64,000 nucleotides of DNA from Bacteroidales bacterium. GTDB taxonomy: Bacteria; Bacteroidota; Bacteroidia; Bacteroidales; FEN-979. How positions within the stretch are numbered: the stretch's first letter is position 1; each line of letters opens with the position of its first letter. The notes under the pieces were generated by a model. The model was given only the letters and a program-made list of their open reading frames with translations. It searched no databases and was not told the DNA's origin. Location of the stretch: the NCBI GenBank assembly GCA_028706295.1, contig JAQWBQ010000013.1, forward strand, positions 1 through 64,000, written 5' to 3'. Shown in pieces: positions 34,770-44,018 of the stretch. The translations under genes and the position numbers were made by a program.

Positions 34770-35198
34770 TCAGGGATCCATTACGGATTCGGAAATCAGG
34801 CTTTCGAGTGTTGCCTGTTCCAGTTTCGAAAAAGTCGTATCTCTGATTTCTTTAAATACTTTCCGGATGGAACAGTTTTTTTCATCCCTGCAAAATTCAC
34901 AGGTTTGATAGGCTTTTTCCGATACGCAGGAAAGCAGGGCGATCGGACCTTCAAACCGCCGGACAATTTCGGCAAGATTAACCTCACCGGGATGACGTAA
35001 CAGAAAATAACCGCCCGATTTGCCGAGTTTGCTCCCGAGAATCCCCATTTTCTTTAATTCAAGTAAAATATTTTCCAGAAAACGTTGCGGCAGTTTTTCA
35101 CTTTTTGCAAGGTCTCCAATCAACATAGCGCCTTTGCCGTATTCACGGGCCAGCCTTGTCAACGCAATCATTGCGTATCTTGTCTTCTGTGATAACAT
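34770..35198 (-). CDS. Rrf2-family transcriptional regulator with four-Cys cluster
   Basis: The ATG at 35198 gives 142 residues starting MLSQKTRYAMIALTRLA, the standard Rrf2 N-terminus; a longer frame to 35279 runs into the upstream gene and adds a Ser/Arg-rich tail. It has a winged helix (KLPQRFLENILLELKKMGIL) and cysteines 91, 100, 103 and 109. IscR, NsrR and relatives use such cysteines to hold an Fe-S cluster that senses cluster supply, NO or redox state. It lies 10 bp after the Crp/Fnr-like gene on the same strand. It may control the divergent ABC/GTPase/desulfurase genes. Confidence 0.88.
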   Translation of the reverse strand: MLSQKTRYAMIALTRLAREYGKGAMLIGDLAKSEKLPQRFLENILLELKKMGILGSKLGKSGGYFLLRHPGEVNLAEIVRRFEGPIALLSCVSEKAYQTCEFCRDEKNCSIRKVFKEIRDTTFSKLEQATLESLISESVMDP

Positions 35199-35208
35199 AT
35201 TCTTCAGA

Positions 35209-35913
35209 TTAACCTTTTCTACTGATCTCTTTAAGCTTTTCGATCTCCTTGATGATGATCTTTCTTCCCTGGAATTCAATCAGCCCCTCTTTGTTAAAGG
35301 ATGAAAGCACCGAAATGACATTCTCGTGGGAACAAGCCGCGAATTCCGAAATTTCTTTCCGCGTCAGCGTGAATTCATACGGGGAGTTGCGGTAAACGTT
35401 TTCCCATAGAAATATCAGGATGTCGGCAATACGACCCATAACATGATTGTGTGCCAGGCTTATAAAATTAAATATCGAGGATTGAAACATGTCGGTCGAT
35501 CGCTCCACCAGGTACAGGAGAAATCGGCCATGATCCTCGAGCACCCTGAGTACCTTGTCATTCGGAAGAAAACAAAGGTCGCAATCCTCTACTGCAATAA
35601 TCGAAAAAATATTCTTCTCCCTGAAAAAAAGGTTGGCCTGACCGATGAGTTTGGGGCCTGATACCACGGTCATGATATAGCTTTTTTTCGCATCCTTCTG
35701 GTAAGTGAATTTCACGATTCCCTTGTGAAGGAACCCGATGCTGGTGGAATTGGCTCCCTGTTTGAGGATCATCTCGCCTTTTGAAAAATGCAGCTGATCT
35801 GCATGGGTGCAAATATGTTTTCGCTCTGCTTCACTCAGATAAATGCTGGTCAGCCTGTTTAAAAAACATTCACTGCAGTTAAACAATTGCCCTGAATTTG
35901 TGATCGATTCCAT
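35209..35913 (-). CDS. Crp/Fnr-family transcriptional regulator
   Basis: The 234-residue protein has a cyclic-nucleotide-binding-fold domain (about 20-140) and a C-terminal winged helix (FTLTRKEISEFAACSHENVI). N-terminal Cys13 and Cys16 (NCSECF), Cys35, and Cys111/Cys114 (EDCDLC) could ligate an Fe-S cluster as in Fnr, but the spacing differs from E. coli Fnr. The region for cAMP contacts is not conserved. The start lies 108 bp from the divergent ABC ATPase gene, so direct control of that operon is likely. It forms an operon with the Rrf2 gene. Confidence 0.88.
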   Translation of the reverse strand: MESITNSGQLFNCSECFLNRLTSIYLSEAERKHICTHADQLHFSKGEMILKQGANSTSIGFLHKGIVKFTYQKDAKKSYIMTVVSGPKLIGQANLFFREKNIFSIIAVEDCDLCFLPNDKVLRVLEDHGRFLLYLVERSTDMFQSSIFNFISLAHNHVMGRIADILIFLWENVYRNSPYEFTLTRKEISEFAACSHENVISVLSSFNKEGLIEFQGRKIIIKEIEKLKEISRKG

Positions 35914-36000
35914 AAAATTTAATAATAGAGTCTGAAAATGTTCATGGGAAGATATCGAAAGTTTCTGTCAAATGTACACTAATTTGGTGAACATTGTGTA

Positions 36001-36008
36001 TATTTTTG
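36001..36008 (+). promoter_or_regulatory. -7 element TATTTTTG of the ABC/GTPase/desulfurase operon
   Basis: The octamer fits TAnnTTTG, 13 bp before the ATG at 36022, so the leader would be nearly absent. TTTG at 35983-35986 is only 14 nt away, too close for a standard -33. The weak match suggests control by one of the divergent regulators. Confidence 0.5.
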
Positions 36009-36021
36009 CTGCAAATCTAAA

Positions 36022-36822
36022 ATGATGAATGTTGATACCATTACCATTTACGGAGGCAACGGCAAAGACGGGGTGAAAGAGCCGGTGGAGTGCTTTACCA
36101 TGCGCGTTGGCGATATTGTCAGCATCGTTGGGCCGACCGGTTGCGGGAAAACCACGCTGATCAACGACATTGAGCTGTTTGCAAATCACAATACTCCGTC
36201 GAACCGAACCGTGGAGATAAACGGGGCAACGGTTCCCGATGATTTTATTTTCGATCCTTCGCACCATCCGATTGCCCTGATCTCCCAGCACACAAACTTT
36301 CTGAGTGATCTTCCGGTGGAGGAATTCCTGACCATTCATGCAACCGTCAGGGGCGCACGCGATATTGAGACCATTCTCAGAGAGACACTCAGTTTCGCCA
36401 ATGAACTCACCGGCGAAGCCATCCAGCCCGAGATAACCATGACCGAGTTATCGGGTGGTCAAACACGCTCGCTGCTGATTGCGGATGCAGTCGTGATCGG
36501 CAACGCCCCGATCATCCTGCTCGATGAGATCGAAAATGCGGGGATCCATCGTACCCGGGCGCTTGAACTTCTGAAGAAATACAGGAAGATCTTCGTCTTT
36601 GTTACCCACGATCCCTGCATCGCATTGATGTCCGACTTCAGGATCGTTATGAGAAAAGGCGCCATGCAGCAACTGATCCATACCCGTCCCGAAGAAAAAA
36701 AAGTTGCCGGAAAGATGAAGCAGATCGATGATATGATGCTCGACTTCCGGCAGATCATTCGTTCAGGAGGGGAGCTCACCCAAACGGTTTTCGATGCAAG
36801 CTATCATGTTTTAACCATTTAA
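36022..36822 (+). CDS. Stand-alone ABC-type ATPase, cofactor or metal handling suspected
   Basis: This 266-residue ATPase has Walker A (GPTGCGKTT, residues 37-45), a Q-loop (LISQHTNF), the ABC signature (TELSGGQTRS), Walker B (IILLDEIENAG) and the switch His (VTHDP). No permease gene is nearby and no membrane segment is present. The Walker B context DEIEN differs from the usual DEP of importers. It is not a clear SufC. Next to it lie a Cys-rich GTPase, a cysteine desulfurase and an Fe-S protein, so a role in metallocofactor or sulfur delivery is inferred. Substrate unknown. Confidence 0.8.
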   Translation: MMNVDTITIYGGNGKDGVKEPVECFTMRVGDIVSIVGPTGCGKTTLINDIELFANHNTPSNRTVEINGATVPDDFIFDPSHHPIALISQHTNFLSDLPVEEFLTIHATVRGARDIETILRETLSFANELTGEAIQPEITMTELSGGQTRSLLIADAVVIGNAPIILLDEIENAGIHRTRALELLKKYRKIFVFVTHDPCIALMSDFRIVMRKGAMQQLIHTRPEEKKVAGKMKQIDDMMLDFRQIIRSGGELTQTVFDASYHVLTI

Positions 36823-36830
36823 CTGATTTC

Positions 36831-37532
36831 ATGAAACTCGTAATTTTTGCCGGCCCTCCGACCTGTGGTAAAACCACCGTTATCAGACAGATCCTGAAAC
36901 GAATGACTGTGAGGAACATTCAAACCGCTTATCTGAAAATTGATGTCTTGTATGCCGACGATGATTCACTCATTGGACGGGAGTTCGGAATTCCGGTAAA
37001 AAAGATCTACTCCGGCGAACTTTGTCCCGACCACTGCAACGTGGTGGTTCTCGACGAAGCAGTGGAATGGGCAGAAAAAGAAGGGGCCGGCTATCTTTTC
37101 GTCGAAACCGCCGGTCTGTGCCTGCGTTGTTCCCCTTATGTCGAAAATGCACTCGGCATCGTGGTGCTGGAGGCGACCAGCGGCATGAACCTTCCCCGCA
37201 AAATCGGTCCGATGCTAACGCTGGCCGACATCGGTGTCATCACTAAAATCGACCTGATATCGCAAGCCGAACGGGAAGTTTTCAGATACCGGGTTCTTGA
37301 AACCGCCAACCAGATAACGGTGGTCGAAAGCAATGCCCTCTACGGGATCGGAATCGATCCCATCGTGAAACACATCCTCAGAACACCCGACCTTGAATTC
37401 CCGATGTATCTCAGAGGTAATCCACCCGTAGGCACCTGCACTATTTGTGTCGGCAAGAAAGAGATCGGGGCTAAAAATCACTTTGGGGTCCTGCGGACTC
37501 TTGATCATGAATTGTTCTATGTCGGAGAATGA
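36831..37532 (+). CDS. Cys-rich P-loop GTPase, HypB/CobW-like
   Basis: The 233-residue protein has a P-loop (FAGPPTCGKTTV, residues 8-16), a switch-like ETAG (92-95), and TKID near 138 as the guanine-specificity motif. Three pairs of cysteines stand out: Cys65/Cys69, Cys97/Cys100 (GLCLRC) and Cys203/Cys206 (CTIC), followed by KNHFGVLR. HypB, UreG and CobW GTPases use similar folds and Cys/His sites to insert nickel or other metals into enzymes. It lies 8 bp after the ABC ATPase gene and overlaps the desulfurase start by 14 bp. Metal insertion is inferred, not shown. Confidence 0.75.
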   Translation: MKLVIFAGPPTCGKTTVIRQILKRMTVRNIQTAYLKIDVLYADDDSLIGREFGIPVKKIYSGELCPDHCNVVVLDEAVEWAEKEGAGYLFVETAGLCLRCSPYVENALGIVVLEATSGMNLPRKIGPMLTLADIGVITKIDLISQAEREVFRYRVLETANQITVVESNALYGIGIDPIVKHILRTPDLEFPMYLRGNPPVGTCTICVGKKEIGAKNHFGVLRTLDHELFYVGE

Positions 37533-38706
37533 GTCACCGAACCCCGATCACGGGATCTACCTCGATAACGCGGCAACGACTACAGTCGATCCCCGGGTGG
37601 TCGAAGCCATGCTCCCATTGTTTACAGGATATTATGGTAATGCTTCCAGTTTCCATCATTTTGGCACCCGCTCGAAGGAAATCCTTGATAACTCGAGAGA
37701 AACGATCGCTGAATGCATTGGCGCCAAACCCGGGGAGATCTTTTTCACTTCGAGTGGAACAGAAGCAAATAACTGGGCCCTGAAAGGAATTGCCTGTGCC
37801 CATCGTCACCGGGGTAACCACCTGATCGTATCCTCCATCGAACACGATTGCATACTGAACACCTGCCGGTGGCTTTCCGGACTGGGATTCTCCATAACCT
37901 ACCTGCCGGTCGATTCCTTCGGAATGATCGATTTACAGGAATTGGAACGATCCATCTTACCTCAAACCATCCTGGTCTCAGTCATGCATGCCAACAATGA
38001 AATCGGCACCATTCAACCCATTGCAGAAATCGGCCGGATCTGTCATGATCATGGGATTTTGTTTCATTCCGATTGCTGTCAATCCTTCGGAAAGATCCCA
38101 TTGAATGTCAGGCGAAGCAACGTCGACCTGATCACACTCAATGCCCATAAAATCTATGGTCCGAAAGGAACCGGAGCCTTGTACATCCGGGAAGGGATCA
38201 GTATTGTTCCGCTGCTTCACGGAGGCGGCCAGGAAAAAGGTTTGCGATCCTCCACTGAAAACCTTCCTTCCATCGTGGGTTTTGCCAAGGCATCTTCCCT
38301 GTGTATGGATGAGATGACTACCGAGATCAAACGACTTACGGAACTCAGAAAAAAAATCGAACAATCGGTTTTTTCAATTTATGAACAATCGTATCTAAAC
38401 GGACATCCCGATCTGCGACTTCCGGGACTGTTGAATTTCGGTATTCATGGTTTGGAAGGGGAGACCATACGGTTACTGCTGCTCCTCGATTCCTTTGGTA
38501 TAGCCGTATCAACAGGTTCTGCCTGCTCCTCAAACGATCCGTCGCACAACGGTTCCCATGTATTGCGATCCATCGGATTGAATGCTTTTCAGGCAAGAGG
38601 TTCCATCCGAATAAGCCTGGGAAGATTTACAACGGCCCGTGATATCGAAATCTTTAACATTTCGCTACACAACGCATTGGCAGAACTGACTTCAATTTTT
38701 TCATGA
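37519..38706 (+). CDS. Cysteine desulfurase, NifS/IscS-like
   Basis: From the ATG at 37519 the protein is 395 residues. It starts with the class V aminotransferase motif YLDNAATTTVDP, carries the PLP-binding Lys211 (NAHKIYGPKG) and the active-site loop Cys336 (STGSACSSNDPSHNG). It should take sulfur from cysteine as a Cys-persulfide. The start overlaps the GTPase gene by 14 bp in another frame; an earlier in-frame start at 37447 would lie deep inside that gene. No scaffold IscU or SufB is adjacent, so the sulfur acceptor may be the Fe-S protein encoded next. Confidence 0.92.
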   Translation: MSENESPNPDHGIYLDNAATTTVDPRVVEAMLPLFTGYYGNASSFHHFGTRSKEILDNSRETIAECIGAKPGEIFFTSSGTEANNWALKGIACAHRHRGNHLIVSSIEHDCILNTCRWLSGLGFSITYLPVDSFGMIDLQELERSILPQTILVSVMHANNEIGTIQPIAEIGRICHDHGILFHSDCCQSFGKIPLNVRRSNVDLITLNAHKIYGPKGTGALYIREGISIVPLLHGGGQEKGLRSSTENLPSIVGFAKASSLCMDEMTTEIKRLTELRKKIEQSVFSIYEQSYLNGHPDLRLPGLLNFGIHGLEGETIRLLLLLDSFGIAVSTGSACSSNDPSHNGSHVLRSIGLNAFQARGSIRISLGRFTTARDIEIFNISLHNALAELTSIFS

Positions 38707-38770
38707 TTTGAACTATTTTTTTTTACAAGAATTCATCTTCGACCCGACAGGGTCAATAAACTGAAAACCT

Positions 38771-39460
38771 ATGGATACGCCTGTAAACGAAAAAAAAACT
38801 CTCGGGATGCTTCCCTTGTTGGACTGTGGTCTTTGCGGATTCAGAAACTGTGAAACTTTCGCCGAATCCGTCGATCGCTTCGAAACAGAACTGAAAAAAT
38901 GCATCCATGTAAAACCAAATGGCGGTTCGGTAATTAAAACGTCCGTAAATATTAATCGCAGGTTCGCGGCTCAAATAGGTGAAAAGATGGGCTGGAAAGA
39001 TCATCTGAACCGGGATTTTGACTTTATCCTTGATTGTTTCGATAACGAACCCGGACCCAGAGAGACCATATTGCCTTATAACCCTGCTCTTGTGAAAGAC
39101 CTCGGAATAAAAAAAGGGGACTTGATGATCGGTCGTCCGATGGGTATGTCATGCGGTTGCCCGATTACGCACTGCGGAGTTGTCACCGGGGTTGACCCCC
39201 GTAACGGCGTGATCCACTGGTGTGTCACGGGTCCTTTAAAACCCCGGTCAGAAGGATTTATCGATATTGGCTATTATACTGCCCAGGGTTATGAGGGATT
39301 GATCCGGGAATGGAAAGGGGAAGTAGAACTGGGCCGTCGGTACTGGTTTCTGCCGCGACGTTGTATGCTTCAATGGAGACACAGTGGATTGGTAAATGCT
39401 GTAACACGACTCTCCGACGGAGGATATAAAGTCAGAATTGAAGGTCTGTTTATCGGTTAA
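38771..39460 (+). CDS. Fe-S-binding protein with CFeSP/RnfB-type 4Fe-4S domain
   Basis: The 229-residue soluble protein begins with CX2CX4CX16C (Cys19, Cys22, Cys27, Cys44; CGLCGFRNC), the pattern of the 4Fe-4S domain found in corrinoid Fe-S protein and RnfB. A second Cys group follows (Cys128, Cys130, Cys135, Cys151; MSCGCPITHCG). The rest (about 80-229) is not recognised. It ends the operon with ABC ATPase, GTPase and desulfurase. Inferred: it is the target or the carrier of the cluster or metal made by its neighbours. Confidence 0.75.
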   Translation: MDTPVNEKKTLGMLPLLDCGLCGFRNCETFAESVDRFETELKKCIHVKPNGGSVIKTSVNINRRFAAQIGEKMGWKDHLNRDFDFILDCFDNEPGPRETILPYNPALVKDLGIKKGDLMIGRPMGMSCGCPITHCGVVTGVDPRNGVIHWCVTGPLKPRSEGFIDIGYYTAQGYEGLIREWKGEVELGRRYWFLPRRCMLQWRHSGLVNAVTRLSDGGYKVRIEGLFIG

Positions 39461-39511: not shown

Positions 39512-41074
39512 TCAGCGGATCTCCTCAATTTTTCCTTTGATCTTTGAAAGCGCCTCGCTCAGTACGGCTTCCGGCGCGATCACGTTGAAGTTGCCCCAGA
39601 AATCGTCATCGGGGGTATAAGGCTGATCGGAAAAGATCACGCCGGGCTTCAACACCTCCTGCCGGGGAAATTTCACCACGCCTGCCGTATCGATGCGGCA
39701 GGTGGCGAATTCAAGGAAGGTATCGAAGCGGTCGGTCGCCATCCGCCTGCGTAAACGGGTCTTTAACCCGATATCGCACCGTACATGTCGCAGGTAGTAC
39801 CTCCCGTTATAGGGCATATAGCTTACCGAATAGCTGATCTTTTCGAGCCTGACGGTCAGGTTCGGGCTCTTCCGTAAAACCAGGTTTTCAGCCGCCAACT
39901 CAAGGTAGTCGGGGTTGATCTCGAAATCTGCCCCCAGCAGTGCGAAATCATCTTTGCCAATGTACAGCGTCCCGGTATATAAAGCCTCCCGGATACCCTC
40001 CTTCTGCACAAAATGGATGGCATAGGCATCTTTTGCATCATAAGAGGTAAGCCCTGCGTAACGGTAGTTGTACGATGAAGGGGTCCTCAGATCGAGAAAG
40101 TCCGGGACCTCTTTCACCAGGTCCAGTTGAAGGGCCGATTGAATGCCGGCTTTGAGCTTCAGGAACACTGTGTCGCGGGGATCCGTATTCTGAATTTTCC
40201 TCGATTTCATCAGCTTTACCTGGTCCGAAAGTACGCTTACATCCCAGGGAGATTTGAAGACCCTGAAAACCGCCTCGGAATAACCGATACAGGTATGATT
40301 CTTCATCACCCCCTCCCGGTAAAACGCAGTAAGGTAAACGGGGTCGACCGCATAATTCAACTTGCGCCGTTCCAGCGCCTTTTCAACCACGGCTTCCGGA
40401 TCCACGTACCGGATAATCACCTCCTGGATCGAAATGACCCTTCGCTCCAGGAAGATATCGACCCGCTGTTCGTGCAGCAGCCTTGCGGGGAACTTCTCAC
40501 TCAGGTAACCGAGATGCGATACCGTCAGCATGGATCCTGCCCCCGAAGCCGGGATCCGGATCATGAAAAAGCCATCCTGGTTGGTGACGGTGCCGGTGTT
40601 ATCCTCAACAATACCCACCGTGGCATAGGGAATCGGAGCCCTGTTCTGACGGTCGTAAACATGCCCGCGGATGAGGATATGCTGAAGGGTGTCGGGTTGT
40701 TGTGCCGGTTGGGAAATTTCGGCCGCCGGTTCCTTTTTGCGGATCAGGATATAGCGCCCCATCACCCGGTAATCGAGCCCGGGATCGGCCAGCAGGTCGT
40801 CGAGAACCTTGCGGAGCGGCTGATGGCCGGGCTTAAGCCGCACCCTTTTGTCGTTCTTTACCGTCTCACTGTTATAAATAAAAAAACAACCGGCCTGTTG
40901 CGAAATCACATTCAGCGCCTCATACAGGGTAGTGCGCTGACCGGTAACCCGGATCTCCTGCTCAAGCAGCGGATCCTGTGCCGATGCTGTGCCGATCCAT
41001 AAAAGGAACAGGCCTGCAATCATCATGCAGGCCCGCGAAGGGATAACCGGGCTGGCGCCCCGGTAAAACTCCAT
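39512..41074 (-). CDS. STN/carboxypeptidase-like surface protein of the sigma/FecR locus
   Basis: Start at 41074 gives 520 residues. After a signal peptide (MMIAGLFLLWIGTASAQ) come an STN domain (RTTLYEALNVISQQAGCFFI), a carboxypeptidase-like beta-sandwich (ILIRGHVYDRQNRAPIPYATVG) and a long C-terminal region ending DDDFWGNFNVIAPEAVLSEA. The last region matches the protein encoded at 42768-44018. An STN domain normally meets the periplasmic FecR domain, and FecR lies 10 bp upstream here. No barrel is seen, so it is not a TonB receptor. It probably acts as input or output of this ECF sigma switch. Confidence 0.8.
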   Translation of the reverse strand: MEFYRGASPVIPSRACMMIAGLFLLWIGTASAQDPLLEQEIRVTGQRTTLYEALNVISQQAGCFFIYNSETVKNDKRVRLKPGHQPLRKVLDDLLADPGLDYRVMGRYILIRKKEPAAEISQPAQQPDTLQHILIRGHVYDRQNRAPIPYATVGIVEDNTGTVTNQDGFFMIRIPASGAGSMLTVSHLGYLSEKFPARLLHEQRVDIFLERRVISIQEVIIRYVDPEAVVEKALERRKLNYAVDPVYLTAFYREGVMKNHTCIGYSEAVFRVFKSPWDVSVLSDQVKLMKSRKIQNTDPRDTVFLKLKAGIQSALQLDLVKEVPDFLDLRTPSSYNYRYAGLTSYDAKDAYAIHFVQKEGIREALYTGTLYIGKDDFALLGADFEINPDYLELAAENLVLRKSPNLTVRLEKISYSVSYMPYNGRYYLRHVRCDIGLKTRLRRRMATDRFDTFLEFATCRIDTAGVVKFPRQEVLKPGVIFSDQPYTPDDDFWGNFNVIAPEAVLSEALSKIKGKIEEIR

Positions 41075-41084
41075 GCTGTTTGTC

Positions 41085-42104
41085 TCAGTTCCTGTTCTTC
41101 GAAAATACAATGGTCCCATTTATGGCCTGGCTTTTCAGGTTCAGCGTCGCGCAAAGGAGTTCGGCGATGGATCCGGCCGCGTTCCGGTCGAAAGTGACGG
41201 TCAGCCGCAACCTGCCTGTCTCCTCATCCGCCGTTGCGAAGTTAACGCTGAAATTCCGGTTTAGCACGGGAATTATATTTCCAAGCATTTCATCCTTGAA
41301 ATGAATCCGCTGTTTATACCAGGCAGTATCTTCATTTCCAGCTATTTTCGATTTTATAAGCCGGTTCTCTGCCACCGCGATCTTTTCACCGGCTGTCACC
41401 AGTTGAACGATCGATGGATCATCCTTCAGGGTGACCCGCACCGTTCCCCGTTCAACCATCAGTTCAAATTTGCTCCCGTTGTCCGTGATCACGTGAAAGG
41501 AGGTTCCCAGCACGCGGATCAGGGTTTTACCGGTTTCAATGATGAAGGGTTTGGCGGGATCGGGGGTGATGTCGAAAAAGGCTTTGCCTTGTAATTCCAC
41601 GGTACGGGAATCGGCTTCAAAGTTCCCGGGATAAGAGAAGCGGGAATTCCGGTCGAGATATACCACCGAGCCGTCGGCCAGGGTTTTGATCAGGGTGTTC
41701 GATTCGGAGGCGGTGCTGAGTTGAACCATCCGGGTGGCGGGCTTGCGGTCGATCGTGTAATAAAGGATCGCTGCCAGCGCCACCAGCACCACGATCGCAG
41801 CGGCAATTCGTGTGAAAACCGGTACCGGTAAGCGGCGTGAAGGGTTGTCCGCGGCGGGGATCAGACCATCGCCCTCCAGGCGGCCGTGCAGCTTTTCCCA
41901 GGCCTGCCGCGCATCGGGCCCCGGCGTCCCGTGAAACTGTTCCAGCGCCTTCCACTTTTTTTTCATCATCTCTGTCCTCCTTAATGTTTCATCCGAAGAT
42001 GAAATTTCCTTCTGAAAAGCCCAAAACTCCTCCCCGCTCATCTCCCCGCTCAGGTACTTTGCCAGCTTTTCGTCACATTCCCGTTGATGCTCCCTGGTTC
42101 CCAT
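41085..42104 (-). CDS. FecR-family anti-sigma factor
   Basis: The ATG at 42104 is preceded by AGAGGAG, a strong Shine-Dalgarno that is unusual in this phylum and settles the start. The 339-residue protein has a cytoplasmic N-terminal anti-sigma part (KLAKYLSGEMSGEEFWAFQK), one membrane helix (about 103-121) and a periplasmic FecR domain (TLADGSVVYLDRNSRFSYP), then a DUF4974-type end (NFSVNFATADEETGRLRLTVTF). It should hold the sigma factor encoded 34 bp upstream until a signal arrives at the periplasmic part. Confidence 0.93.
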   Translation of the reverse strand: MGTREHQRECDEKLAKYLSGEMSGEEFWAFQKEISSSDETLRRTEMMKKKWKALEQFHGTPGPDARQAWEKLHGRLEGDGLIPAADNPSRRLPVPVFTRIAAAIVVLVALAAILYYTIDRKPATRMVQLSTASESNTLIKTLADGSVVYLDRNSRFSYPGNFEADSRTVELQGKAFFDITPDPAKPFIIETGKTLIRVLGTSFHVITDNGSKFELMVERGTVRVTLKDDPSIVQLVTAGEKIAVAENRLIKSKIAGNEDTAWYKQRIHFKDEMLGNIIPVLNRNFSVNFATADEETGRLRLTVTFDRNAAGSIAELLCATLNLKSQAINGTIVFSKNRN

Positions 42105-42138
42105 TTCGTTTCTCCTCTTTATCGCGATTGATCTCTGT

Positions 42139-42720
42139 TCACAAACTGTTCTTTGGATAGATCCCGGCTTCATTACCTGTGTAATCTTTCAGGGATTTCC
42201 TGAAGATCTGAAGCGCCTTTCCCATCTCCGCCTCCACCGTCTTTACCGAGATGGAAAGGATCGCGGCGATTTCACGGTACTTTTTACCGTCAAAGCGGTT
42301 CATCCGGAAGATCCGGGAACACCGCTCCGGCATCTGGTTCAGCGTGTTTTCGATCACCCGGGTCAGGTCATTCAGCTCCGCCGATTGTGGCTCCGGTGCA
42401 GGCGCCGTTTCCCGCTGTTCGCCGCGTACCTGCTCCGCGTAACTTCTTCGTATGGCAAGATGTTCGAGGTGATGCAACGCGTTGTTGCGGATCGACTGAT
42501 AGAGGTAGGCATTCAGCGACAACCGCACCGTGAAGGTCTCCCGGTTCTTCCAGAATTGGTAGAAAAACTCCTGCACCAGATCTTCCGAAGTATCCATGTC
42601 GTTCAGAATTTTATTGGCATGACGGCATAAGGGTTCGTAATATTTTGTGAAAAGCCGCTCGAATTCACCGATGTCGCCATGCTGAATGTTTCTTTGTGTG
42701 AAGAGGTCGTTGAGCGACAT
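42139..42720 (-). CDS. ECF RNA polymerase sigma factor
   Basis: The 193-residue protein has sigma region 2 (about 22-90, DTSEDLVQEFFYQFWKN) and region 4 (about 125-185, RCSRIFRMNRFDGKKYREIA) with no region 3, as in ECF factors. It is cytoplasmic and paired with FecR downstream. Targets are likely the adjacent surface-protein genes. The gene upstream on the same strand ends 47 bp away. Confidence 0.93.
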   Translation of the reverse strand: MSLNDLFTQRNIQHGDIGEFERLFTKYYEPLCRHANKILNDMDTSEDLVQEFFYQFWKNRETFTVRLSLNAYLYQSIRNNALHHLEHLAIRRSYAEQVRGEQRETAPAPEPQSAELNDLTRVIENTLNQMPERCSRIFRMNRFDGKKYREIAAILSISVKTVEAEMGKALQIFRKSLKDYTGNEAGIYPKNSL

Positions 42721-42767
42721 CGGGTTGTTATTGAGGGTTATCCTGGTGCAGGAATCCAGTCAAATGG

Positions 42768-44018
42768 TTACTTTTTCAGACTTTTCGAAAGCTTTTTAAT
42801 GGCATTTTCAATCGAGCTCTCGGGCTCAATGATGTTGTTGTCGCCCCAGAAATCGGGATCGGCAAAAGCCTGGACTTTTTCTTCGAAAACCATGTTGGTC
42901 TTGAAAACCTCCTGATTGGCAAATTTAACGATATTATCCTCATGCCGGTCGGTGATGGCCAGTTCCGACATCACGGTATAGTGGTTTTTGAAGAGTTTTC
43001 GTTTCCAGTCGCACCGGAATTTAAGATCGACGCGGACATAACTGAGATAAAATTTACCGTTCTGCTCCTTATAAGTCACGAGGTAACTGGTCGAAGTAGG
43101 CGTGAATACCAGTCCCATGGGTTTTTTCTGGACAAAAAGCCGCGCGGCCTTGTCGGTATCGTCGAGGTCGAGGCTGAAATCGGCGCGGGTGATGGCCATG
43201 TTATCCTGAGCGATGTAAAGCTTCCCGTTGTAAAGGGGAACCGCTTTGATCACGTTGGGCGTAAAACCGATCACCCAGTTAAGTCGGTTATCGATCGTCA
43301 CCATCGACTCAATCTCGAACTGGTAGTTATCCAGACTGTCGAGGGCGATGCTGAGGTCGGTGTTCTTCACAATATCGAGCAGCAGCGAAACATTCGGACC
43401 GCCCTGCAATTGTACCATCAGCGTATCGGCCTTTTTCACGTTGGTGCTTTTTCTTCCCTTGAAGATCTTCACCTGGTCGTCCTGCCAGTTGGTGTAAGGG
43501 GCCTTGCGGATATCGACGACCGCTTCGGAGATGGAGACATAGTCGCGGCGCTGACGGATCGACTCCCGGTAAAAGCCGGTCATCATGTTTGCTCCTTCGC
43601 TGTAGTTCTTCCGGATGCGGTGCATGGCCATCTCGACGATTCCGCGTGCATCGCCAGGTACTACCGACAATTCTTTAAGCTGAATAGGCTGCAGTTCCAG
43701 GTAAAAGGTCTTTTCCTTTCCCGAAGCCTCGCTGATTTTGAACTTGGTGGTGGTATAACTCAGGTGCGAAACCTCGAAGTACTCTGCGTTGAGCGAATTC
43801 TGAACTTTCAGGATAAACTCCCCTTCTGAATTCGAAACGGTGCCGATGTTGGTTCCCGGAACCGTGATGGTGGCATGAACGATTTTTTCTCCCGATTTGA
43901 CGTCTTTAAGGTGGCCCGAAACGGTGACATAACCGTTCTGCGCCCGAAGCGCGCTGAATATAAAGATCAGGAACAGTATCATGCTGATCCGGATCATACT
44001 TTGAGTCAATTTTTTCAT
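42768..44018 (-). CDS. Carboxypeptidase-like-domain protein, paralog of the STN protein
   Basis: The 416-residue exported protein (signal peptide to about residue 26, FSALRAQ) has a carboxypeptidase-like sandwich (VTVSGHLKDVKSGEKIVHAT) and a long domain with GFYRESIRQRRDYVSISEAV, ending DPDFWGDNNIIEPESSIENA. The last two segments match the 39512-41074 protein, which has an added STN domain. It lies directly upstream of the sigma gene. Function unknown; a surface protein under control of this sigma factor is the simplest reading. Confidence 0.75.
   Translation of the reverse strand: MKKLTQSMIRISMILFLIFIFSALRAQNGYVTVSGHLKDVKSGEKIVHATITVPGTNIGTVSNSEGEFILKVQNSLNAEYFEVSHLSYTTTKFKISEASGKEKTFYLELQPIQLKELSVVPGDARGIVEMAMHRIRKNYSEGANMMTGFYRESIRQRRDYVSISEAVVDIRKAPYTNWQDDQVKIFKGRKSTNVKKADTLMVQLQGGPNVSLLLDIVKNTDLSIALDSLDNYQFEIESMVTIDNRLNWVIGFTPNVIKAVPLYNGKLYIAQDNMAITRADFSLDLDDTDKAARLFVQKKPMGLVFTPTSTSYLVTYKEQNGKFYLSYVRVDLKFRCDWKRKLFKNHYTVMSELAITDRHEDNIVKFANQEVFKTNMVFEEKVQAFADPDFWGDNNIIEPESSIENAIKKLSKSLKK

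Follow-up and report, generated by a model that had tools for sequence, protein, structure and literature searches.

A conserved block of an ABC ATPase, a UreG-like GTPase and an iron-sulfur protein: a candidate metallocofactor-loading module linked to inorganic-sulfur incorporation in anaerobes

What could a permease-free ATP-binding cassette (ABC) ATPase, a GTPase of metallochaperone type, a cysteine desulfurase and an iron-sulfur (Fe-S) protein be doing together in one block of genes? The question is raised by 64,000 nucleotides of contig JAQWBQ010000013.1 from a Bacteroidales bacterium, an uncultured anaerobe; this whole stretch is called the window below. The operon-like block lies on the plus strand and encodes the ABC ATPase (266 aa, 36022..36822, PF00005 3.1e-15), a UreG/HypB-type GTPase (233 aa, 36831..37532, PF02492 1e-10), a NifS/IscS-type cysteine desulfurase (395 aa, 37519..38706, PF00266 6.2e-78), whose gene overlaps that of the GTPase by 14 bp, and the Fe-S protein, here called FES (229 aa, 38771..39460). 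The initial annotation of the four genes (36022-39460) was right in coordinates, gene identities, the overlap and the CX2CX4CX16C motif of FES. Among Pfam and curated models only generic families cover the four proteins, namely ABC, a CobW/HypB domain, aminotransferase class V and a short Fe-S domain. In gene order the module is linked to thiol-forming enzymes, those of coenzyme M (CoM) in archaea and of cysteine and homocysteine in bacteria. We give nearly even chances to the reading that it is an NTPase-driven metallocofactor-loading module serving inorganic-sulfur incorporation in anaerobes.

The block is not a peculiarity of one genome. In a set of 61 genomes, made up of that of the window and 60 relatives, 22 had a FES homologue with E below 1e-100; in the loci compared the genes stood in the same order, in most cases with the same regulators diverging from them. 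Among 84,980 named species genomes a scan picked up 67 loci, mainly in metagenome-assembled genomes of Bacteroidota whose titles refer to lakes, fen, groundwater and other sources. Further loci came from Acidobacteria, Methanocella, Methanoregula and one contig with the label Patescibacteria, besides a distant set of Dependentiae/Parcubacteria type. The phylum to which the Parcubacteria-type G070 belongs was considered as a main carrier and rejected, at 3 of 145 genomes, and no plasmid-borne copies were found. Nearly all GTPases from the loci of Bacteroidota, Acidobacteria and Methanocella are 233 aa long and at least 64% identical to that of the window. The genes had been expected to stay together outside close relatives, and their order is indeed kept in these three lineages; such recurrence of gene order and GTPase identity goes far beyond what chance would give. 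When 86 GTPases were placed in a tree, with a midpoint root only and several long branches, they separated into group A (Bacteroidota, Acidobacteria and Methanocella, unresolved as a single clade), group B (CoM-cluster forms of Methanomicrobia), group C (a second, CoM-linked archaeal form), group D (in methanogens, where most loci pair it with a DUF1858/SBP_bac_6 protein) and group E (a fusion of GTPase and Fe-S domain, of Dependentiae/Parcubacteria type).

The GTPase belongs with the metallochaperones for nickel and other metals. It has a SIMIBI-type fold with a P-loop, matched UreG (4hi0, 2.3e-11) and also HypB in profile searches, and its AlphaFold model (predicted local distance difference test score, pLDDT, 86.9) had UreG as the best PDB match (4hi0_E, Foldseek E 2.9e-11, TM 0.66/0.78). 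Its CPDHC motif (37023..37037), in which C65, P66, D67 and H68 are invariant, aligned to the CPH motif of UreG, which is the nickel site of that protein, and LPRKIGP of the window GTPase aligned to IPRKGGP of UreG. The scores fell far under the equivalog cut-offs of both families (HypB 46.1 against 121.2 bits, UreG 30.7 against 204.2 bits), and the GTPase is thus a relative rather than a member of HypB or UreG. It differs from them also in its extra CxxC pairs and its constant ABC partner, and the block has no urease or hydrogenase structural genes. Of the three cysteine pairs noticed at first, C97/C100 (37119..37130, after the ETAG G3/switch II motif) and the C-terminal C203/C206 (37437..37448) are invariant in 20 sequences, whereas C69 varies and the first conserved pair is C65/H68. 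The ABC ATPase has, by alignment, every catalytic motif of its superfamily, since Walker A, Walker B, Q89 of the Q-loop, LSGGQ, D168E169 and H196 of the H-loop were invariant in 18 sequences. ABC and GTPase genes were paired in all complete loci examined, and no transmembrane subunit was present among the genes recurring with the block across lineages.

FES appears to combine a known Fe-S domain with a second site. Its N-terminal 4Fe-4S domain (PF04060 7.6e-8, covering residues 14-45 only) has the ligands C19, C22, C27 and C44 (38825..38902), invariant in 31 sequences and also across groups A-C, and matched the Fe-S domains of AcsC and RnfB in profile searches. The likeness to AcsC, the large subunit of the corrinoid/iron-sulfur protein (4djd_C, 2e-5), is limited to roughly the first 55 positions of the profile; the corrinoid-binding part is unmatched, and residues 81-227 of FES are without a clear fold match. 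Beyond the 4Fe-4S ligands there are six more cysteines and not four as the initial annotation had it, and only C130 and C198 of them are invariant. In bacterial and archaeal sequences alike, the invariant positions outside the 4Fe-4S ligands include C130-P131-x-x-H134 (CPxxH, 39158..39172, again in 31 sequences and across groups A-C) and C198-M199 and H204 (CMx4H, 39362..39382), and it is likely from this pattern that the two motifs form a second metal or sulfur site. The FES model had a pLDDT of 82.7, with a beta-rich C-terminal domain (residues ~80-229) mostly of high confidence, and no PDB entry matched it at E below 0.001. The best candidates for the fold of the C-terminal domain (Foldseek E 0.018; VIA-align Z 5.4 over 63 residues, a beta-barrel) were in the range expected without relationship and were rejected, a missing match that proves nothing either way. 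The earlier idea of a metallocofactor or sulfur system thus gained a GTPase related to UreG/HypB-type metallochaperones and a second set of Cys/His motifs in FES, while the reaction is one that we only infer.

Loci compared at the sequence level place ABC ATPase and GTPase (with FES) in the core and make the desulfurase optional. With TIGR03402 it scored 467 bits, under the NifS cut-off of 530.75. It is not adjacent in L071, L090, L095 and L097, nor in the archaeal CoM clusters. In L042, which is of the same genus as the window and has a GTPase 99.6% identical, the desulfurase gene has undergone a near-complete, clean deletion (L042:10690-10870), and in L075 a second, internal deletion (L075:1920-2230) has left 5' and 3' remnants; the ABC, GTPase and FES genes are intact in both. 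These are contigs of metagenome-assembled genomes in which misassembly is possible; the deletion is seen in two separate cases, and the absence of the gene from the archaeal clusters agrees with it. The L042 record is titled Alphaproteobacteria, yet its contig is near-identical to the Bacteroidota window, and the name therefore looks wrong. Wider decay was seen in L098 (genome G022), where the GTPase, NifS and FES genes are truncated and the regulators and the ABC gene intact, and in L041 (G019), where the regulator pair is kept and the genome holds only a short FES fragment. Besides the block gene, the window's own genome (G000) and most relatives have another NifS-type domain, encoded within a long open frame of ~730-830 aa (in G000 at C34:26048-27142, within a frame of 737 aa), which suggests a fused desulfurase, perhaps with MnmA as the partner. 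Given this second domain and the SufB/D-core genes of G000, which lie only on another contig (C96), the block desulfurase is an extra copy. The description of the locus as a four-gene unit was therefore overstated, and, with Suf elsewhere in the genome and a dispensable desulfurase, it cannot be called self-contained. That no Suf scaffold is present is true of the block and not of the genome.

A competing reading is a dedicated Fe-S assembly system that replaces or backs up Suf or Isc, in which the ABC ATPase would take the part of SufC and FES that of the scaffold. A soluble, permease-free ABC ATPase, a cysteine desulfurase and an Rrf2-type regulator occur together here as in the SufBCD system, the type I desulfurase and Rrf2 regulator also resemble Isc and Nif operons, and five block-bearing genomes (G061, G063, G064, G070 and G071) show no SufB/D match. 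These genomes may be incomplete, however, and the SufB/D-core genes of G000 speak against a replacement of Suf there. Differing from SufBCD, the block is without a SufB or SufD partner and has a UreG-like GTPase; differing from Isc and Nif, it has no IscU/NifU, and its desulfurase is dispensable and under the NifS cut-off. No match to IscU/NifU or another scaffold family was found among the four block proteins and the two regulators, and the CoM clusters have no desulfurase at all. We therefore find a role in Fe-S assembly unlikely.

The recurrent neighbours of the core genes are enzymes that incorporate inorganic sulfur. Relatives of the GTPase were present in 38 of 148 Halobacteriota genomes (a set centred on a Methanoregula genome, from which the phylum was deduced), and cysteate synthase adjoins the trio of ABC ATPase, GTPase and FES in 15 of the 20 Halobacteriota loci read. 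The order in L130-L141 is ABC-GTPase-FES-(MMP16)-cysteate synthase-ComDE, in which MMP16 is CoM synthase and ComDE sulfopyruvate decarboxylase, with MMP16 missing from that place in L130 and L134; L142-L144 are rearranged, and L142 is without MMP16 and ComDE. The CoM-cluster families of L133 were confirmed by the curated models TIGR03287, TIGR03844, TIGR03845 and TIGR03846. This archaeal trio has already been seen: a paper on CoM synthase names an ATPase, a GTPase that binds Ni and a COG2000 Fe-S protein as often colocalised with CoM biosynthesis, and gives their role as unknown (PMC12068725, 2025, Fig 2 legend). From the gene order and the Fe-S domain, the COG2000 protein would belong to the FES family. 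In the CoM clusters of Methanomicrobia the trio has the same three protein types in the same order as the window, with ~50-55% GTPase identity. The window differs in its bacterial host and in adding the NifS-type desulfurase, Rrf2 and Crp/Fnr; the Bacteroidota loci, for their part, are without cysteate synthase, ComDE and MMP16, and G000 is without the COG1900 family. Since the trio occurs in bacteria that have no adjacent CoM genes or COG1900 gene, its role is unlikely to be specific to CoM.

In bacteria, cysK, cysE, or a cystathionine-synthase-type or O-acetylhomoserine sulfhydrylase gene was near the block in 9 of 25 Bacteroidota loci (those with enough flank and outside the window's own genus clade). 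The probability of this by chance is ~1e-7 (binomial, with a generous gene density) and ~2e-6 after a rough collapse of clades, and the control gave one partial match in 557 kb. Some broader links were tried and rejected: genome-wide co-occurrence with cysteine synthase showed no clear association (it is absent in G000 and G006), sulfite reductase turned up in a single one of the 61 relatives, which lacks the block, and maturation of COG1900 (CoM/homocysteine synthase) as a universal role found PF01837 in one of 61 relatives, again one without the block. Because of these absences of COG1900, sulfite reductase and, in G000, cysteine synthase, the shared theme is inorganic-sulfur incorporation and not one client.

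The block could instead mature a single sulfur-cofactor metalloenzyme in each lineage, MMP16 in methanogens and HydE/[FeFe]-hydrogenase or another enzyme in Bacteroidota. In most group B clusters the trio is followed by MMP16, which is a COG1900 protein and has been named a metalloprotein, and in Halobacteriota a second COG1900 gene goes with the presence of the GTPase (33 of 38 genomes against 38 of 110, p 1.5e-8, uncorrected for phylogeny). HydE, the radical-SAM maturase of [FeFe]-hydrogenase, lies between NifS and FES in L064, L078 and L080 (in L080 with TIGR03956 above cut-off) and adjoins FES in L083. However, those 38 GTPase-negative archaeal genomes have at least two COG1900 genes, the block-bearing Bacteroidota lack COG1900, and HydE linkage is confined to two lineages. 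PMC12068725 cites earlier work in which MMP16 formed CoM when expressed in Escherichia coli, which also weakens the case for MMP16, and we regard maturation of one enzyme per lineage as quite improbable. With the exception of HydE, the clients proposed in the initial annotation (CODH/ACS, hydrogenase, HgcA) are not recurrent neighbours of the block, a result for neighbourhoods with no genome-wide search behind it.

Group-D-like genes occur also in 17 genomes of the same phylum, judged to be Chlorobi-like, and in Acidobacteria. FecCD, Peripla_BP_2 or TonB-receptor genes lie near them in several of the Chlorobi-like loci and, among methanogens, in L147. This linkage to uptake genes ties the ABC-GTPase pair to metal-type acquisition, which favours a metal function over a pure sulfur relay. 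In L175-L180 and L147 the ABC-GTPase paralogues stand beside an SBP_bac_6-type protein, which in the Chlorobi-like loci has no obvious signal peptide; from their gene content, it is possible that these operons serve intracellular metal trafficking. The fusion of a short Fe-S domain onto the C terminus of the GTPase in group E ties an Fe-S domain to the GTPase independently. In the candidate-phylum loci L099, L102 and L101 the ABC gene and the fusion are followed by a small ferredoxin; a ferredoxin-thioredoxin reductase-like gene comes after these in L099 and L102, and a thioredoxin-like gene precedes them in L099. The uptake genes near group D, together with an SsuA-like binding protein beside the block in L129, L130 and L134, might also be taken as a sign of transport, with the ABC ATPase energising import of a sulfur or metal compound through a permease encoded elsewhere. 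FecCD and periplasmic binding proteins do recur in several group D loci, but groups A-C have no conserved permease within the block or next to it, and the ABC gene is always partnered by the GTPase and not by membrane proteins, which makes transport very improbable.

If the block does load a metallocofactor, the GTPase would bind a metal (Ni, Fe, Co or Zn) and hand it over on GTP hydrolysis, and the ABC ATPase would, as a soluble switch, drive or gate the transfer. The acceptor would be the C-terminal site of FES, whose 4Fe-4S cluster would supply electrons or hold sulfur, and the loaded FES could then pass electrons or activated sulfur on to the enzymes that form thiols and insert sulfur. In loci that have it, the neighbouring desulfurase would be an extra source of cysteine-derived persulfide. 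This mechanism builds on composition, conservation, fold class, motif invariance and gene linkage, and the main doubt about it is whether metal is loaded or sulfur relayed. In a relay without metal, the desulfurase or sulfide would charge FES at its 4Fe-4S and Cys site, the NTPases would drive handover of persulfide or sulfide to CoM, cysteate or cysteine/homocysteine synthases, and the Cys sites of the GTPase would hold structural Zn or Fe-S. The sulfur-incorporating neighbourhood in both domains, the NifS gene, ThiF/MoeB-type genes near the block in four loci and relatives that lack sulfite reductase, and so would depend on reduced sulfur, are all consistent with a relay. On the other hand, NifS is optional and has been lost while ABC, GTPase and FES stayed intact, the GTPase groups with metal-inserting GTPases, and group D is tied to metal-type uptake and not to sulfur genes. 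A relay alone is therefore doubtful, though the most serious of the competing explanations.

Several observations also weigh against metallocofactor loading for sulfur incorporation. The C-terminal domain of FES has no recognised fold match. As this domain was not found in group E, it cannot be a universal acceptor. Archaea and bacteria do not share any one target enzyme, and since block-bearing Bacteroidota lack COG1900/HcyBio and G000 has no recognisable cysteine synthase, neither MMP16 nor CysK is a universal client. In the window's own genus the genes flanking the block are not sulfur genes. More tentatively, the ABC ATPase and UreG-like GTPase may form an unrecognised, cross-domain two-NTPase metallocofactor insertase with interchangeable acceptors, namely the COG2000-type Fe-S protein in groups A-C, the DUF1858/SBP_bac_6 protein in D and the fused Fe-S domain in E. 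The product in groups A-C might then be a new metal-sulfur protein for the inorganic-sulfur step of thiol synthesis, for CoM in methanogens and for cysteine or homocysteine in anaerobic bacteria.

A literature search gave one relevant paper on the archaeal trio and nothing on the bacterial block. The system is thus no longer undescribed as far as the archaeal trio is concerned, whereas the bacterial four-gene, NifS-containing version with its regulators and operator appears new. The same appears to hold for its cysteine/homocysteine linkage, for the finding that the desulfurase is dispensable, for the conserved second set of Cys/His motifs, for the fusion of GTPase and Fe-S domain and for the paralogues linked to uptake genes. 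The system bears on how inorganic sulfur is activated and routed in methanogens and other strict anaerobes, and also on what gives CoM its sulfur. Pairs of ABC ATPase and metal GTPase, if they form a wider family, would be a new architecture in metallochaperone biology.

Two cysteine-rich regulators on the minus strand diverge from the block. The Rrf2-family regulator (34770..35198, PF02082 2.2e-31) has four cysteines in the arrangement C-X8-C-X2-C-X5-C, 100% conserved in 25 aligned rows, and the Crp/Fnr-family regulator (234 aa, 35209..35913, PF00027 and PF13545) has five (13, 16, 111, 114 and 194), 76-100% conserved in 42 aligned rows. Rrf2 homologues begin with MLSQKTRYAM or similar, which makes ATG 35198 the most likely start codon, giving 142 aa, and not TTG 35279; with this start the Rrf2 and Crp genes do not overlap. 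The conserved cysteines agree with the initial description of divergent regulators with Cys clusters, and an operator-like palindrome lies in front of the block. This palindrome, TACACTAATTTGGTGAA (35975..35991), lies 47 bases upstream of the ABC start codon, recurs across loci, overlaps the promoter and is the predicted Rrf2 site. At least 12 of its 17 positions matched in 22 of the 25 loci where an Rrf2 gene is adjacent, in 6 of the 18 where none is, and in ~5% of shuffles, counts in which closely related loci are not independent and a shuffle comparison that is optimistic because the consensus was derived from the same loci. Downstream of it, TATTTTTG (36001..36008, plus strand) resembles a Bacteroidota -7 element (TAnnTTTG), and its TTTG aligns in most upstream regions. 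Rrf2, probably an Fe-S or thiol sensor, would repress the operon at TACACTAAnnnGGTGnA with input from Crp/Fnr, and the two regulators would turn the operon on during Fe-S, sulfur or redox stress.

Outside the block, at 39512-44018 of the window, two outer-membrane-type CarboxypepD-regulatory-like proteins flank a pair resembling FecR and a sigma factor, as judged by eye.

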